NCBI RefSeq assembly: GCF_041260155.1
Contig: NC_091928.1
Coordinates: 34,623,388 to 34,687,387, forward strand
Direction: 5' to 3'
DNA: 64,000 nt
DNA from: Ptychodera flava
Taxonomy: Eukaryota; Hemichordata; Enteropneusta; Ptychoderidae
Part shown: positions 33,301-63,775 of the stretch, piece after piece
Layout of the letters: each line of letters starts with the position of its first letter
Numbering within the stretch: the first letter of the stretch is position 1
Program-made: the position numbers and the translations under genes
Notes under the pieces: model-generated
Told to the model about the DNA's origin: nothing
The model's input: only the letters and a program-made list of their open reading frames with translations
The model's database searches: none

Positions 33301-34028
33301 TTAGACTCGTAAAATGTTAATGTAGGACTAATGTTTTCGTATATTCTCGGCATATTTCTTTTAAAATTGTCGATAACTTCTTCCAGCACCTCTGGGTTTT
33401 GGGGGGCATTTAATTATGCCTTAAGATATCATTTACTACAGCCTTTTAAAATGTTTTATGAATCTGGCGTAAAATGAGCGATCCCCGTTTTAAATCAAGC
33501 GTTTTGTTACAATCACGTTTTCGACGAATGTTTCGCTAAGAACCGCTAAGTGGAGTAGGCTGTGAAGATTTCAAATCATCTGGCTCTTGCCATATGCTTA
33601 GTACTTCCGTGTATCGCATTTTGCCTGCTTGTGAAAACGTCTTTCACTATTGCTGATGTTTTACAAGTGTTATCGCACTCTACGTGTTTGGTCGAGTTAT
33701 TCTATTCTTAATATCGAATGACATTTTTTACCCTACGAGTCCCGCCGTTTTCCTGAACACGCCGTCCACTAGTCCTCAACATGTACCAGGCTACTTTGAA
33801 TTTTGTTTTTGTTTCTCCCTTTCTGCCCATGCGGAAGAGATGTTATCATGACGTCACTATAATCTTAACCTACACATGCAATTTTCCCATGACGAAGTGG
33901 TGCACCGGATTTTCCATTTTTTAAGTTGTGCCGTCGAAATGACAAACTCAACGCCAGCGAATTTCGGTGTCAATCCAAAACAGCTGGATGAACAAAATAT
34001 TCACAGGTTGCCTAGGTTGCTTATAGTG
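33301..34028. other. Upstream region of the ETS gene, nothing recognised
   Basis: No supported exon or element seen. Confidence 0.35.
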
Positions 34029-34188
<160 letters not shown>

Positions 34189-34528
34189 CTCAGGCACAGG
34201 GGACTGACAGGCATGTAACAGACGACCGTCAAAATGACAGAATCACCCACAGACATCGGCAAACATTAGAGGAAGGAGACAAGAGAAAGCATGAATGCGA
34301 GGAACAGAGAGGGAGAGACTCGGGCAGAAGCATTTAAATTACGTTGAAAAAAAATTATTTTTCTGTCCCTACTTTTGGTACCGTTCGGTAATTTTGTCCA
34401 TTTTCGTCGAACGAAATGCTCAATTTATTATTGGCAATTCGTCACGACATTAACATGTCCTAGAACCAACCATTTCCCCAATTCTTTCACCATGTAACCA
34501 CATTACAATCGACACATTTGTTTGTAGC

Positions 34529-36008: not shown

Positions 36009-37254
36009 GTCGTCATCATCATCATCATCATCATCATCATTATCATCATCATTATCATCATCATCATCATCGTCATGAGTCGATGTCATCGACATCACCA
36101 CTTAATTACTGGCTTCAATAAAAAACAACCTGACTGGAAAGTAAAATACATCTTCATGTCTCTTAAAAACTCTGTTACCGCAAGTTGACTTATGAATTCT
36201 CAAAATGGGTATGGTAATTCTTTAAACGCGAAGTTGTGAGTTGTTTCGTCAAACCTTTAATTTTATTAAACTCTGCCTCAGGAATACCTTCGATCAGTAA
36301 TGTAATAATTTAGGGGTAGACCACTTGATATCCTGGGGGATCTGGAAGATTAATAAGGTAGCATTATATTTTTTTACCTGATCCATTGTACATTATTTTT
36401 TCCCACTCTTCCACCTTTTTTGTCAAGCTTTCTCTGACTGATTGTTTTCATTGACATTTGCTAGGAATCTTTTTTTTTGAAAATCTTCCAGACCCCAAGG
36501 ATATTATATAGTCCACCATTACTAAGTACCGTAAATAGCAGACGTTATAAAATATTTTAACATGCATGTACTTGTTCTGGACACCACGGCATATTTACTT
36601 GTCTTATTAATTTTTTGCGTCTCCCTGAGACATATTACTGTAGCATCATCTTGGAGTAAACTGTGCTAACTCGTCGTTGTCAACGGAACAGTCTGGTTTC
36701 GACACATTTGCAAACCCACTTCAGGAGACGGTAAAGAAATCGAGTGTTAATGTCCGCTTTATCATTTCTTTCTTTTGACAGACCCATATCAATGGTCAAC
36801 TGACGACACGTACAACTGGATTGTCAAGACCATGGAACAGATGGGTCTCGTAAATGACACAAAATACATATTTGCGGAAACGATTAAAAACAAACAAATC
36901 ACAGGATCCATACTGGCCGCCATGAAAGAATGGGAGTTTGCACATACGTTTCCAGGCAACAAACTAGATGCTGACGTCGTGTATAATTGTTTGCAGTGCT
37001 GGATAAAAGGTAAGTATGCTAGATATAATAGTTTCGCTTTGGCGGAAAGTGCTGCATTTGTATGTATGTATGTATGTATGTATGTATGTATGTATGTATG
37101 TATGTATGTATGTATGTATGTATGTATGTATGTATGTATGTATGCATGTATGCATGTATGCATGTGTGTATGTGTGTATGTATGTATGTATGTATGTATG
37201 TATGTATGTATGTATGTATGTATGTATGTATGTATGTATGTATGTATGTATGTA

Positions 37255-37291
<37 letters not shown>

Positions 37292-38208
37292 ATGGATGGA
37301 TGGATGGATGGATGGATGGATGGATGGATGGATGGATGGATGGATAGATGTATTATCACAATGGTGATATCACGATCTTGCTTTTTATTGTATTTTAGAT
37401 GAAAGTACTGCCAATTCGCTTGATTTTTATCCATTAAATCTCTTCTACATCTTAGCATCTGTTTACAGTTCAACAAGATATGACCAACTGAAACCTGATG
37501 CAAGAAGACCAGGACGCACAAATTTGCCAAAGTCAGGGAGAAAACCACGAAGGAAAGGTGATATATTTATTTTACTTCACTTTTATCTTATCCATTTCTC
37601 TTACGTATGGAATCATAAATACAGGATGAGCTTTCCTACACAGTAAAGGAGAGACGATAAGACACGAATAGCCTTTTTCACAAAGGCACAACCCCATTCT
37701 CTCATCGTGCGTACTTTCCAAACCTTTCTGAATTGATAAAATAGATGAGACAAAATTATGAGGGGGATAGACCAAGACAAAAAGTCTTATATTGACTGAG
37801 TTTTAAGGATGGAAATGAACCTGGGATCCGAGCTCTTTACTTTATTTTGCTGTTGAGTTCTTTTTTAGATTATGAACAACATATATAATTGAAACGGTAA
37901 CCCTTCCTTTAATACGGTAATTGCTTTAAGCTCGCCAGTTCTTTGGAAAATGTCAGTCAAACGATGTGTTACGATTGAATAACCATAGAACTAGAAAATA
38001 ACTAAGTAAAAAACAAACTAATTAGCTATCTAGCTGACTTAGTGACTGACTATCTAACTAACTAGCTAATAAGCTAACTGACTAGCTAAGTGACTGACTA
38101 ACTCACCAACTTACTTACTAACTTAAGTACGAAAATTAATAATAATTAACTAGCTAATAAAAAACCCTCTTTTGATATAGCTCTAAGGTGACACTAAACG
38201 AGTACCGG

Positions 38209-38281
<73 letters not shown>

Positions 38282-39002
38282 TGCAAACACTTTTTATTCT
38301 AAACTTGAAAAAACCATGTCAGTCGATTCACACTTTAATGAAAAGAGTCGGAGCTTGTGATGCCTTTCCTTAATAAACATGACCCGATATGGTGTTTGCT
38401 GCAACAAAAGCATGTAACGAAACGTTATGACTTAAACTGCCCTGTTTTGTGGTCTGTATTTTTTAATTATCCAATCTATTCACTTTTTAAAAGACTAACA
38501 CGTTTGCAAGAGATGTATAAATATTGTATCGTTAGAATTACTAATGGTAAATTCTGTATGAAGACCATATTTAACAAAAGTGAACAATTAAACATTCAGA
38601 ATTATAATAAAATAGTTTTGCCATGGCTGCTCGTTTTTTCACCTTTATATGGAAGTTTGAAAAGTTTCCAGGTGAATAAAATATGTTTTATTGGTTTCTG
38701 TTTTTTCAGCTGTAAATCGCCGTCTAAGCTTGAAGAAGTATATAATGGAGTGCCTTGAAGAGCCCGGGAAGGCCTTTTCTGATGAACTGGTTTGGGTGCA
38801 AAGGTCAGAGGGGATATTTAGGTTCTGCGATGGCAAGGAAAGGTTTGCCGAACGATGGGGCAGGATGAAGGGTAACAACGAGACCAAAACGCCATGGTAT
38901 TCCAAAATGGCACGCTCTTTGAGAATCTACCAAAGGAAGGGCGTTATGCAAAATTGCAAAAAACAGCTACACTACAAGTTTGTACTGGCGCCATCCTTTT
39001 AA
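34529..39002 (+). CDS. ETS-family transcription factor (PNT-like + basic + ETS), 5 exons
   Basis: Exons 34529-34603, 35477-35552, 36782-37009, 37399-37557 and 38710-39002 join in one frame (phases 0,1,1,1) to give 276 residues and a TAA. All introns are GT-AG. Residues ~51-126 (exon 3) form a diverged PNT/SAM-like domain starting [14 protein letters not shown]. Residues ~127-180 (exon 4) end in a basic stretch, [17 protein letters not shown], resembling an AT-hook region. Residues ~183-270 (exon 5) are an ETS DNA-binding domain: [20 protein letters not shown] and recognition helix [11 protein letters not shown] keep two of three tryptophans and the two GGA-contacting arginines, while the helix-1 tryptophan is replaced. 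Domain order and the SEGIFR motif suggest the ESE/ELF3-ELF5-EHF group, but divergence is high. A TTTGTAG just before the ATG leaves open that exon 1 is internal. Acts in the nucleus on GGAA/T sites (family knowledge). Confidence 0.88.
35969..36075. repeat. (ATC)n microsatellite in ETS-gene intron 2
   Basis: Trinucleotide run with a few CGTC/TTATC interruptions. The Ile and Asp homopolymer frames over it are artefacts. Confidence 0.95.
37060..37345. repeat. Compound (GTAT)n(GT)n(GGAT)n microsatellite in ETS-gene intron 3
   Basis: GTAT repeats to about 37259 (with GCAT variants near 37143-37163), then GT to about 37287, then GGAT to 37345. Together they fill most of the 389-base intron 3. Confidence 0.97.
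37990..38160. repeat. Degenerate CTAA/CTGA tetranucleotide tract, intron 4
   Basis: Repeated AACTAGCTAA, GTGACTGACT and similar words with no strict period. Looks like a decayed tetranucleotide microsatellite. Confidence 0.7.
38211..38277. repeat. (TA)n microsatellite, intron 4
   Basis: Pure alternating AT for about 67 bases. Confidence 0.97.
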
Positions 39003-48560: not shown

Positions 48561-50025
48561 AGGACTTGTCGGTAATAATAAAGCAGTCAGACGATGTAGA
48601 GTTGAACTCTTTATTTGAAATATCACAGTCAAAATAAATAAAATCAAATAAGGTAAACCGTTGCACAAAAAAAACCTCCTCGCCACCCCAGGGGACTTTC
48701 CCCTGTACCCTGTGGTTGAACCAACAATTAATGGATCATTCATCACACAGCCCATCGTCTTTACATTTACTTCATTTGGACCCACTACTGAAAGGCCGAA
48801 TGGAATTTTTCAATCATAAGCTTGAGATTCATTGGCTCAGGTGATAGTGAAATGTAATTTTTAAAATTTTGTTACATATCTGAAAATTAGTATTGTTATT
48901 ATCGAACCCCTGGTGTGCACGGACTCATGCGCACATACTGTATCCATAAACTGACTTCGAAGCATCCATACACTTCAATGAACAGCAGTAAACATATTTC
49001 TTTGCTAACATATGCAGATGAAGTACATGGATTACAAAGAGTTAGGCCTAATCTTAGTGTCTAGCAATTATGTATCATTAGCAGTACTTTTGAACTTTGA
49101 AAGCTCGCCATTTTTATTCCAGTACAACACACATATTTGATAGAAAAACCTTCTAATTAAGTATTGATATTTAATGTGTCTACCTGAAAGACAGTTACAA
49201 TTTTTGTTGTTGTGTAATTGCTCTTGACAATGAGACTGTCTCTAGTATGATATTTATCAGTAGATCCATTCCAACCCTGGAAGCCCACTTACCAACAATT
49301 TGCATTCAGAAAATGAAAGTCGAGGCAATTTTTAATCAAAGGATGATAAAGAATAGGCTATCAATCTCAATTGTCATTTATTGCGCAATTTTTTTATCAT
49401 TTTGCAAAAATTAATCTTTTCAGAATGACTGCGACTACAAATTTAATCATTTTCATTATCTTTTTCATAATGAGCAAGTATTTTCTTCTTCAGCTCGCTC
49501 AGGAGTACGCAAACACATTGTCCGTACAAACATGCGCCGTTATGCAATTGTATAATTTGACAAATGAATTCTGTTATTGATTGAATTTACTTGTCAACAA
49601 AAATATCTGGTATTGTAGGCCAACAAAATTGGCCTTCTTTGTCTTTGTTGCTTTCGTACATACTATTTTGTATTCGCCGTAAAATCACACTTGCGGCTAT
49701 CTGGTATCTTGAAATTACATCGGTATCTAGATTCTCAGGATTCTGCACAGGTCGAGGATTTCGCAGCCTCCTCACGCCCCTTTCGCGTTTCCACCCTTTT
49801 GTCGAATGTCACATGTAGTGAGACTTTTGCGCCCGGTAATCGAAATCAGCTAAGCCCCCTCCCCTGGCCCGGGCCCTGGCCCTAAACACAGAATTCCGTT
49901 TACTGTACGCGTTATCCACGGCCCTTATAAAATGGTTCAAATTTCATGCAGTGTACACTGACATGAACTTTGAACCATTGAATATGAATCACGTGTTTGG
50001 CTAACCACAACACACAGAAACCAAA
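48561..50025. other. Intergenic upstream of TRIM gene A
   Basis: No gene recognised. On the minus strand an AATAAA-like word (AAATAAAGAG) at about 48610-48620 could end a transcript, but no exon can be defended. The TRIM promoter is presumably within the last few hundred bases; no clear TATA element was identified. Confidence 0.35.
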
Positions 50026-51893
50026 ATGGCGGAAGGAAAGGACGAGAGATCATTTCTCGAGAAAATCGATGAGAATTTTCTCATATGCAGCATCTGTTCG
50101 GAGAGGTATAACAAAGCTAAATGTCTTCCTTGTCTACACACCTTCTGTGAGCAATGTCTGAGTCAACTGTTGAAGAAAACTGGAAAGTTGGACTGCCCAA
50201 TATGTCGACGTACATGCGCTGTTCCATCTGGTGGTGTTGGCATGCTACAAAACAATTTCTTTATCAATGATCTGGTCGAGCAGTTCAGATTGCGAGAAGA
50301 CAGTGAAAATGGAGAGTCGACAAAGTGTGGATGGTGTGAAGAAAATGAAGGTGACGAGGTGAGATGCATTGATTGTGATATGAATTTGTGTTCAACTTGT
50401 GCACGTCCCCATAGACGAGTACCAGCAACCCGGAAACATCAACTCATGCCACTCAAAGAGTACAAAGAGGCAAAGGTCGCTGACCCCGCTTCAGTGATTG
50501 CACCTATGCAATGTAGCAAGCATTCAAACCACCCTTTGGCGTACTTCTGTGTGACGTGTGACGAGGTGATATGTCTGGAGTGTACAGTTATCGATCACAG
50601 AGCACCAGAACACAAACACCAATACCTAAAAGAGTCGGCAAAAATCTACGTCAAGGAGTTAGAACAAATGCGCGCGAATTTGGAAGGGAAAGAACGAGAG
50701 TTGAATGAGAGTAAGGAGAAAATAGAAAGGACAAGAGCATCACTTGAGGAAAGATACAATCAAGAAACAAGAAAGTTAAATTTTCACATCGAAGGAATTA
50801 TTCAGCAAGTTCGAGATATAGGGACACAATTCGCAGGGAAGTTAAGATCTAAGTACGAGTCAAGAAAGACAATATTGCAGGGACAGGTGAAGGAACTTCA
50901 GCGTACCGAAGACGATCTGTCAAGTACATGTGAATACATCAAGAACATCTCAGACTTTGGTGGCGCTGCACAGTTAATGATCGCAAAGAAGGGAATAACG
51001 TCCCAGGCACAGCAACTTATGAAGACAGAAACGAAAGTGAAACCAAAGGAGAGTGACTACATGGAATTTAGTAAGGCCGATGAACTTGTTAAGATTGAAG
51101 CTGCTGTAGTTGGAGATGTTCTTTTTAAGGAAATGTATATGGATGTGAAAAAAGTCTCAAAATCAATGGGAAGTACACTCGATTTGGCAATTGTACTGAA
51201 AGCCTGTGATCAGACGCCACTGTTCACTTCCACGGACGAAGTTAGATGTACTATTACCGGATGCGGTGACAGTGAAGTACAAATGCAAGTGAAGTCAGGG
51301 GAGGAGGGCGCTTTACTTCTCCACTCTGGAAACTTGCAACTTGAAAAGGATTGTAAATTATCTCTTTTGTTGTGCGGTACTCAAATGAGATCAGCAAGAA
51401 ACCTGAAGCATATGTCTCTGGAACCCCTTCGATTTCATCATCGTTGCGAAGGGTCAGTGTCGTTTGATAATGAAAATAAGTTTGCTTTTATTTCTTCCGA
51501 TAGAGCTATTATTTTAAGTCACAGAACAGTGAAGTGCAATGAGAAAATATCAGTGAAAGTAAAGTCACGACGGGTACGACGATCACAAAATGACTTTTTT
51601 ACCCAATTTGATCAGTTTTATTTTGGATTTACTTTAGAAAGTCCAGACAAATCCGAGTTTCCATCATATCTAAGGAATTTAAGTTCTTCCTGTTGTCTTA
51701 TAGTAATCATGGGCTAATATCATTAAAGAGGGATAACTGTACTTTTCGATGCTGGGTGACCGAAGATGGGCGAGTGTTATATTCTATAGATGATGGCGAG
51801 ACAACTGTTCACAGTAAAGGCGTCGATACCAGTAAACCACTATGGTTTGTGATTTCGAGCGCTTCCTATACACAGCAAATTGATTTAATGTAA
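50026..51893 (+). CDS. TRIM E3 ligase with C-terminal Neuralized-type (NHR) domain, one frameshift
   Basis: A single-exon frame of 563 residues (50026-51717), continued in another frame to a TAA at 51891-51893. Domains: RING, C3HC4, residues ~21-60 (C21, C24, C36, H38, C41, C44, C57, C60); B-box 1 ~101-138; B-box 2 ~163-198 (C163, H166, C175, C178, C183, C186, H191); coiled coil ~205-310; a possible filamin-like linker ~340-455; then from ~468 a region matching Neuralized repeats: LRFHH, AIILSHRTVKCNEKISVKV, FYFGFTLESPDKSEFPSYL, and after the shift DGRVLYSIDD and VDTSKPLWFVI. The shift lies at about 51691-51693 and looks like loss of one base: a pseudogenising mutation, a null allele or an assembly error. 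Start context is AAAATGG. Ubiquitin ligase activity is family knowledge; the NHR call is from pattern memory. Confidence 0.88.
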
Positions 51894-53737: not shown

Positions 53738-53867
53738 AATGCCCTAGGGCACATTATATAAATGCCCTAGGGCACCTCGGGCCTGTGAGTCACCCCCAAA
53801 GACAGACTGTTTCCCGAGGCCGTAGGCCGAGGGAAACAGTCTGTTTTTGGGGGTGACTCACAGACGT
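53738..53867. repeat. Hairpin with preceding TATAAATGCCCTAGGGCAC duplicate
   Basis: Arms 53783-53815 and 53831-53863 (CTGTGAGTCACCCCC...TTTCCC and complement) around a 15-base GC-rich centre GAGGCCGTAGGCCGA. Two direct copies of TATAAATGCCCTAGGGCAC precede it. Confidence 0.8.
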
Positions 53868-61745: not shown

Positions 61746-62268
61746 ATTTACTGTCACATGAAACGTATGTCAACAGCAGTGATAACAAAATACAATCAAA
61801 GCATTTGCACTGTTTAGACTGACCCATTACTGATTGCTTAGCTCTTCCACGGGCGAGCCTTGCAGTCACTTACATGGCAAGTGCGGTAACCTCTCCGTCA
61901 CGCGATAGCCTACTGAAGTATATTCTTTCTATTGAATTTATTGTGTTTTGAACTTCACATAACTGCAGACTTGAGGCAAGTCTAGCGGATATCTATCCCT
62001 TCATAATATATATACCTTGAAGGGGTTACAAGCAAAATTGTTTGCGAATTCATTGTTTCGAAGAGTCCAATATGTGTCCCAGGAACATCATTAAACCAGC
62101 CTTTCTCTGTTTGAATTTACTCTCCACAGCAGAAGCAGCGAGTCTGTATTTTAACAATGATGTCTCTGAACAGATTAAAAGTTCATACACTGTGAATGAA
62201 TTGCATGCAAAATAAAAGCTTACGTATCACGTGAGTGTTCAGATACCCCATGCATACAGACACAAAAA
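61746..62268. other. Upstream flank of TRIM copy B
   Basis: No supported feature; the ACAAAAAATGGCGGAAGGAA start context resembles that of copy A. Confidence 0.35.
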
Positions 62269-63212
62269 ATGGCGGAAGGAAACGACGAGAGATCGTTTCT
62301 GGCGAAAATCGACGAAAATTTCCTCATATGTGGCATCTGCTCGGACAGGTACAGGAGCGCGAAATGCCTTCCTTGTCTGCATACATTCTGTGAGCCATGT
62401 CTGAGTCAACTGCTGAAGAAAGCTGGAAAGCTGTATTGCCCGATATGTCGACGAACGTGCCCTGTTCCAATGGTGGTGTTGCCGCGCTGCAGAATAATTT
62501 CTTCATCAATGATTTGGTTGAACAGTTCAGATTGCGAGACCACGGTAAGAACGAGGAATCAACAAAGTGTGGCGGCTGCGAGGAAAATGAAGGTGACGAG
62601 GCGAGATGCATTGAGTGTGATATGAATTTGTGTTCAACTTGTGCTCGTCCGCACAGGCGAGTACCAGCAACCCGGTCACATCGACTGATGCCACTCAACG
62701 AGTACAAAGAGGCAAAGTCCACCGACCCCACTTCGGTGATTGCACCCATGTATTGTAAGAAGCATTCTAGTCACCCATTGGCGTATTTCTGTGTGACGTG
62801 TGATGAGGTGATATGTTTGGAGTGTACAGTTATCGATCACAAAGCACCAGAACATAAACACCAATACCTTAAAGATTCTGCTAAAATCTACGTCAACGAG
62901 TTAAAACAACTGCGTGCGAATTTGGCAGGAAAAGACCGAGAGGTTCATACGAGCAAACAGAACATAGAAAGGACAATAACATCTCTTGAGAAAAGATACA
63001 ACGAAGAGAGAGGAAAGTTAAACGTCCACATCGAAGGAATTATTCAGCAAGTTCGAGATATAGGCACACAATTCTCAGAGAAGATGAAATCTGAGTACGA
63101 GTCAAGGAAAACAATCTTGCAGGGACAGGTGAAGGAACTTCAGCGTACAGAAGACGATCTGTCAAGTACCAGGAATGGAAGTTTACAAAAAAAGTACAAA
63201 AAGCACGATTAG
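62269..63212 (+). pseudogene. Truncated, frameshifted second TRIM copy (RING, B-boxes, coiled coil only)
   Basis: Closely similar to the TRIM gene at 50026 from its ATG onward. The RING cysteines and histidine sit at the same residue numbers (C21 to C60). A one-base loss near 62468-62474 (CCAATGGTGG where copy A has CCATCTGGTGG) shifts the frame; the rest of the match, both B-boxes and the coiled coil, is in the other frame to 63212. The match to copy A stops abruptly after CTGTCAAGTAC at about 63169, in the codons for residues ~300, followed by 15 unrelated residues and a TAG. The linker and NHR domain are absent. A short transcript could still encode a RING-only peptide ending at 62625; probably a pseudogene. 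Confidence 0.87.
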
Positions 63213-63690
63213 AAGCAGGGGGAAAGCTTAAGTGTGCGCATGCGTGTAAGGGCATCCTCGTACGCGGATGTCATTTCAAAGATGAACGTGCTTCTTGAGA
63301 TACTTGTTTTGTACCTTTAGAAGCACAATCAGTAAATATCAGTAAATATAGGAAAATTGCATGTTAAACTCATTTTTAATGCTGTCAGTTTCTATTAAGT
63401 AAACGTAGAATGCCTACATTTTCTACATAAGAACATCTCTCCCCTCCCTCTATGACATGCTTCTTGAGCGATATATTTTGTATCTTTAGAAGCACTCAAT
63501 CAGAAAATATGGGAATATTGCATGCCAAACTCATTTTTAATGCTGTCAATTTATATTAAGGTAAACGTAAAATGCCTACTTTTAAACATAACAATGTCTC
63601 TCACTCTCTCCACACTATCCCCCACCCCCTTATCTAATTATGATGTGCTTCTTGAGATACATACAGTGTTCTCCCCAGGCCGTTTAACAG
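63213..63690. repeat. Two-copy tandem repeat, ~180 bp unit
   Basis: GTGCTTCTTGAGATA...TTTAGAAGCAC...CTCATTTTTAATGCTGTCA occurs at about 63288-63390 and 63458-63550, with a third partial start at about 63646. Confidence 0.7.
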
Positions 63691-63775
63691 GATCGGCCCC
63701 GATCCTTTATTTTTTTCGCCCGATCCTTTATTTTTTCGCCCGATCCTTTATTTTTCATGCCGATCCTGTTTCATG
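63691..63775. repeat. Minisatellite, unit ~CGATCCTTTATTTTTTCGCC
   Basis: About 3.5 copies of a 20-22 base unit, bounded by GATCGGCCC at the left and CCGATCCTG at the right. Confidence 0.9.

Follow-up and report, generated by a model that had tools for sequence, protein, structure and literature searches.

We have found in a 64-kb stretch of DNA, called the window as a whole, what appears to be an animal-type TRIM gene in which an NHR domain takes the place of NHL, SPRY or other domains as the C-terminal substrate reader. Its RBCC is nearest to those of TRIM3, TRIM2 and TRIM56 among solved structures. We give this reading a probability of about 0.7. As far as the sequence can tell, the fusion of a TRIM RBCC, a linker and an NHR is real at the DNA level, and this order is borne out by Pfam and by PDB alignments. 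However, the NHR is not encoded as one uninterrupted reading frame. The initial annotation had described a TRIM protein ending in an NHR domain: the order in the DNA holds, but no single frame encodes such a protein.

Domain organization of the gene

The gene starts with the following features:

50026..51717, + strand: main ORF, 563 codons and a stop, with ATG at 50026 and the stop codon at 51715-51717
50086..50205, + strand: RING finger, C3HC4, residues 21-60; Pfam zf-RING_UBOX (E 2.7e-8) and zf-C3HC4 (E 5.2e-7)
50326..50442, + strand: B-box 1, residues 101-139; PF22586 ANCHR-like_BBOX (E 3.8e-9), over the cut-off
50506..50625, + strand: B-box 2, residues 161-200; PF00643 zf-B_box (E 5.5e-9), over the cut-off
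50626..51066, + strand: coiled-coil region, about residues 201-347, from the alignment to TRIM3 and TIF1-beta structures
51067..51432, + strand: linker of about 120 residues, about 348-469, with no Pfam or PDB match

The RBCC, the linker and the first half of the NHR lie on the same strand in this single continuous ORF. Its length of 563 codons compares with a mean of 160 codons and a maximum of 248 for the longest stop-free run in 50 order-1 randomised windows. In the RING finger both Pfam matches pass the cut-off and the ligand pattern is matched, with all eight ligand positions present. B-box 1 also fits its ligand pattern. For B-box 2 the pattern gives no match; by eye it is one residue too long, and Pfam finds the box.

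The coiled coil was delimited by alignment: residues 153-347 align with residues 100-294 of TRIM3 (8amr) and residues 20-300 with TIF1-beta (6h3a). The best PDB matches of the RBCC are TRIM3 (1.3e-32), three sequences of TRIM2 (6.4e-27, 5.7e-24 and 9.9e-24) and TRIM56 (8e-20). By the presence of a RING, then B-boxes in order, then a coiled coil, the predicted protein belongs to the TRIM/RBCC family, as had been proposed for its N-terminus.

Neither Pfam nor PDB gives a match to the linker at E 10. Possibly it is a degenerate filamin-type Ig domain, a likeness seen by eye. Pfam lists no NHL or filamin match in the 563-residue protein or in the pieces scanned. For residues 345-563, which take in the linker and the first half of the NHR, AlphaFold gives from the single sequence a model with a mean pLDDT of 35.9, too poor for use. 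NCBIfam adds a single match, to the rad18 RING, far under its cut-off.

The NHR domain is found in two reading frames

The C-terminal part of the gene has these features:

51433..51687, + strand: NHR, N-terminal portion, in frame with the RBCC; match to PF07177 positions 1-81 (E 6.5e-5, 23.3 bits)
51640..51717, + strand: stretch in which the frame most likely breaks, with approximate limits
51732..51893, + strand: NHR, C-terminal portion, in another frame; match to PF07177 positions 96-147 (E 2.7e-6, 27.8 bits)

A comparison of both frames with the NHR profile had been suggested at the outset, and each of them gives a match. This suggestion implies that the break had been noticed, although the initial annotation does not mention it. 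The first piece (translation of 51400-51714), scanned alone, reaches 23.3 bits, which equals the curated cut-off of 23.3; the last piece is the translation of 51663-51890. The two halves are colinear on PF07177. When they are written with ten X between them, the match extends over positions 1-147 of 149 (E 3.2e-13, 50.3 bits versus the cut-off of 23.3). By this profile, the whole domain is apparent only when both frames are joined in this way. In the unmodified 563-residue protein the NHR match is under the Pfam cut-off (18.3 bits, E 0.0022). A reversed control string does not match PF07177; its single match is to another family (E 0.028). All the NHR landmarks named in the initial annotation are present, but the last two, DGRVLYSI and VDTSKPLWFVI, do not share the frame of the others.

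The closest solved structures are those of Drosophila Neuralized. A phmmer search of PDB with the X-joined NHR finds 4kg0 (4.1e-6) and 2yue (8.9e-6), and one more match at E 1.6. Separately, the pieces are far less informative: the tail alone matches the Drosophila Neuralized chains with E 0.28-0.29 and the first half with E 0.54-1.2, in the latter case with an unrelated chain ranking higher (E 0.32).

Between the two matches there are 44 bases (51688-51731) for 14 positions of the profile, which indicates that one base has been lost or two have been gained. The RBCC frame closes at 51715. In the tail frame no stop occurs between about 51612 and the one at 51891-51893. With 50026-51550 as training set, codon scores give a weak signal: among the three frames the tail frame ranks first in the segments that start near 51700 and 51760, but it does not in the one near 51820. 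These scores are not circular, in contrast to a separate set trained on the tail itself.

A second copy of the RBCC

One other copy was found by blastn in the window, with its hit in 62253-63169:

62253..63170, + strand: second copy, RBCC only (residues 1-301), 85% DNA identity

Its frame changes between the RING and B-box 1. The homology ends at the end of the coiled coil, with repeats beyond, and there is no NHR of this copy within the window. Its linker and NHR may be missing or may lie beyond the window. Shortly past the truncated copy, in positions 63286-63770, we have observed repeats at intervals of 160-190 bases and a tandem of 20 bases, which are possibly part of an insertion that cut the copy.

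Over 301 codons the two copies have Ks 0.50, Ka 0.096 and Ka/Ks 0.19 (Nei-Gojobori), values which cover the RBCC only, as the NHR has no second copy in the window. In 100-codon windows Ka/Ks goes from 0.125 on the N-terminal side to 0.304 on the C-terminal side. As judged from these substitutions in the RBCC, both copies have changed in the manner of protein-coding sequences during most of the time since they separated. Such past selection at the protein level argues that both breaks are either recent or artefactual.

Cause of the frame change

The frame change may be due to a mutation, to an indel in the assembly or, less likely, to an intron. These three explanations concern the cause of the break, and all of them are compatible with the TRIM-NHR identity of the gene.

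In the case of a mutation we would have a pseudogene, a TRIM-NHR gene once functional and now decaying, as would also be the copy at 62253-63170. We consider this a serious possibility, at somewhat less than even odds. Each of the two copies has one frame break, the second one ends with the coiled coil and has repeats after it, and the increase of Ka/Ks along the RBCC goes in the same direction. On the other hand, apart from that one break there is no in-frame stop in the aligned region of either copy, and the substitution pattern is overall that of a protein. With such clean frames and a Ka/Ks of 0.19 the decay would have to be recent. Furthermore, an unpolished assembly likewise gives single short indels in frames that are clean elsewhere. 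If the break is a mutation, the product of this copy would be an RBCC-linker protein whose NHR is truncated.

An assembly or sequencing indel, with the gene intact in the animal, is also quite possible, although somewhat short of an even chance. It would agree with the presence of one short indel in each of two constrained and otherwise clean frames, and with the codons flanking the break, which fit one domain at nearly the right spacing. However, no long homopolymer is found at either break.

A short intron in the NHR could join both frames, so that the gene would be intact through splicing. An acceptor-like, pyrimidine-rich site ends at 51703, and there are 45 frame-compatible GT/GC-AG pairs of 31-160 bases. 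Three of the 45 joins were tested, all with the 51703 acceptor, and they score 44.2, 43.6 and 44.2 bits. A higher score, 50.3 bits, is obtained when the sequence is kept and X is placed at the break, although a strict comparison of these scores is not possible. The stretch of frame 1 which would be removed falls within the NHR match, and the donors paired with the 51703 acceptor are weak by eye. An intron is thus disfavoured as the cause of the frame change, and we consider it improbable.

As for the identity of the C-terminal domain, another beta-sandwich such as SPRY is extremely improbable and we have rejected it: the Neuralized repeat and SPRY have a common type of fold (available part of PMC8195603), but SPRY gives no Pfam match at E 10 in the 563-residue protein, the NHR pieces or the X-joined string, of the 24736 families of Pfam PF07177 alone is listed for the pieces of the NHR at E 10, and Neuralized is the best solved relative. 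The initial view of the C-terminus as NHR-like and not SPRY agrees with these matches.

Other features of the window

The window is eukaryotic and animal-like, to judge from its TRIM, SAM/Pointed and Ets domains. The last two are found in exon-like ORFs on the + strand, with matches barely over the cut-off: a SAM/Pointed domain in 36751-37053 (PF02198, E 7.3e-6) and a partial Ets domain in 38733-38885 (PF00178, E 4.6e-6). Both ORFs probably belong to one gene for a PNT-ETS transcription factor. Two long simple-sequence ORFs, 33975-34328 with RE repeats and 36964-37347 with YVCM/IHTY repeats, look like microsatellites and not genes. No Rfam match at the gathering score and no tRNA were found in the window.

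A palindrome and an inverted repeat were also observed. The palindrome, in 49931-49979, has about 49 bases, is 92% self-complementary with 2 gaps, and precedes the start codon of the TRIM gene by 47 bases; a search for similar patterns in the window finds this place only. The inverted repeat is in 53783-53863, with 39-base arms which are 92% complementary and have 3 bases between them. It is perhaps the remnant of a small mobile element.

Possible function and significance

A TRIM gene with an NHR as reader would probably work by the mechanism of a TRIM-SPRY ligase. The RING would recruit E2~ubiquitin, the coiled coil would dimerise in antiparallel fashion, and the NHR domains brought together in this way, with their presumed SPRY-like (concanavalin-type) fold, would bind the substrate. 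We infer that the protein probably has ligase activity, dimerises and binds a substrate. An immune role of the TRIM-NHR protein may be plausible. In the available part of PMC8195603, SPRY, PRY and the Neuralized repeat are described as SPRY-like domains with a concanavalin lectin fold, which are coupled to ubiquitin ligases in immunity.

TRIM proteins owe many of their targets to the C-terminal domain, and in vertebrates the increase in the number of TRIMs came with SPRY (available part of PMC2533329). A TRIM with an NHR, if true, would represent an independent recruitment of a SPRY-like reader, related to SPRY but distinct from it, and would provide a link between the TRIM ligases and those of the Neuralized family. 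The RBCC-NHR combination is not named in the TRIM classifications of PMC2533329 and PMC3503706, as far as their available parts extend. The legend of domains for human TRIMs in the former does not include Neuralized; the word 'neuralized' is absent from the available main text of both papers, and 'NHR' from that of the latter. This agrees with the initial remark that NHR is not among the standard C-terminal domains of TRIM proteins. Among the literature matches listed, no RBCC-NHR protein is found in titles or in the start of abstracts; in the available parts of two other papers, NHR appears in a figure legend (PMC9334734) and Neurl4 has an unrelated mention (PMC7870141). Nevertheless, the architecture may well be already present, unremarked, in animal protein databases. 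Viral and prokaryotic contigs gave 4 and 17 pattern matches respectively, none of them confirmed, and no homologue with the fusion was found in these collections, which is no surprise with a gene of animal type.

A new substrate-recognition class of TRIM ligases had been suggested for this gene. It can be put forward as a hypothesis and not as a result, because the NHR is split here and the second copy shows none in the window. In its strongest form, RBCC-NHR proteins would make up a functional class of TRIM ligases which has expanded in certain invertebrate lineages, with NHR in the place of the SPRY of vertebrate TRIMs, and the copies found here would be members of it, intact in the animal. 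We consider this rather unlikely.

Comparison with known systems

TRIM2 and TRIM3 have at their C-terminus a filamin domain and NHL repeats, whereas the gene described here ends with an NHR. Together with TRIM56 they are the best solved relatives of its RBCC; these three proteins and their relatives (TRIM subfamily C in the available part of PMC3503706) likewise have a RING, two B-boxes and a coiled coil.

The Neuralized/NEURL E3 ligases have in common with this gene the pairing of an NHR (PF07177) with a RING. Neuralized has its NHR repeats ahead of a C-terminal RING and is not known to have a B-box or coiled coil. The gene found here does not have such a layout: its RING is N-terminal and its NHR tail ends at the stop codon.

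In TRIM-SPRY ligases the RBCC is followed by a reader with a SPRY-like concanavalin fold, as we propose here. Examples are TRIM21, TRIM25 and TRIM5. Their reader is B30.2/SPRY, whereas in this gene it belongs to the NHR family and has no SPRY match.

The addition of a new C-terminal domain to an RBCC in one lineage has a parallel in the subfamily C TRIMs of Branchiostoma, although the domain which they gained is MATH and not NHR (available part of PMC3503706). The joining of NHR to another signalling protein is also found in invertebrates, in the NHR-caspases of anthozoans, where the partner is a caspase and not a TRIM (available part of PMC11251625).
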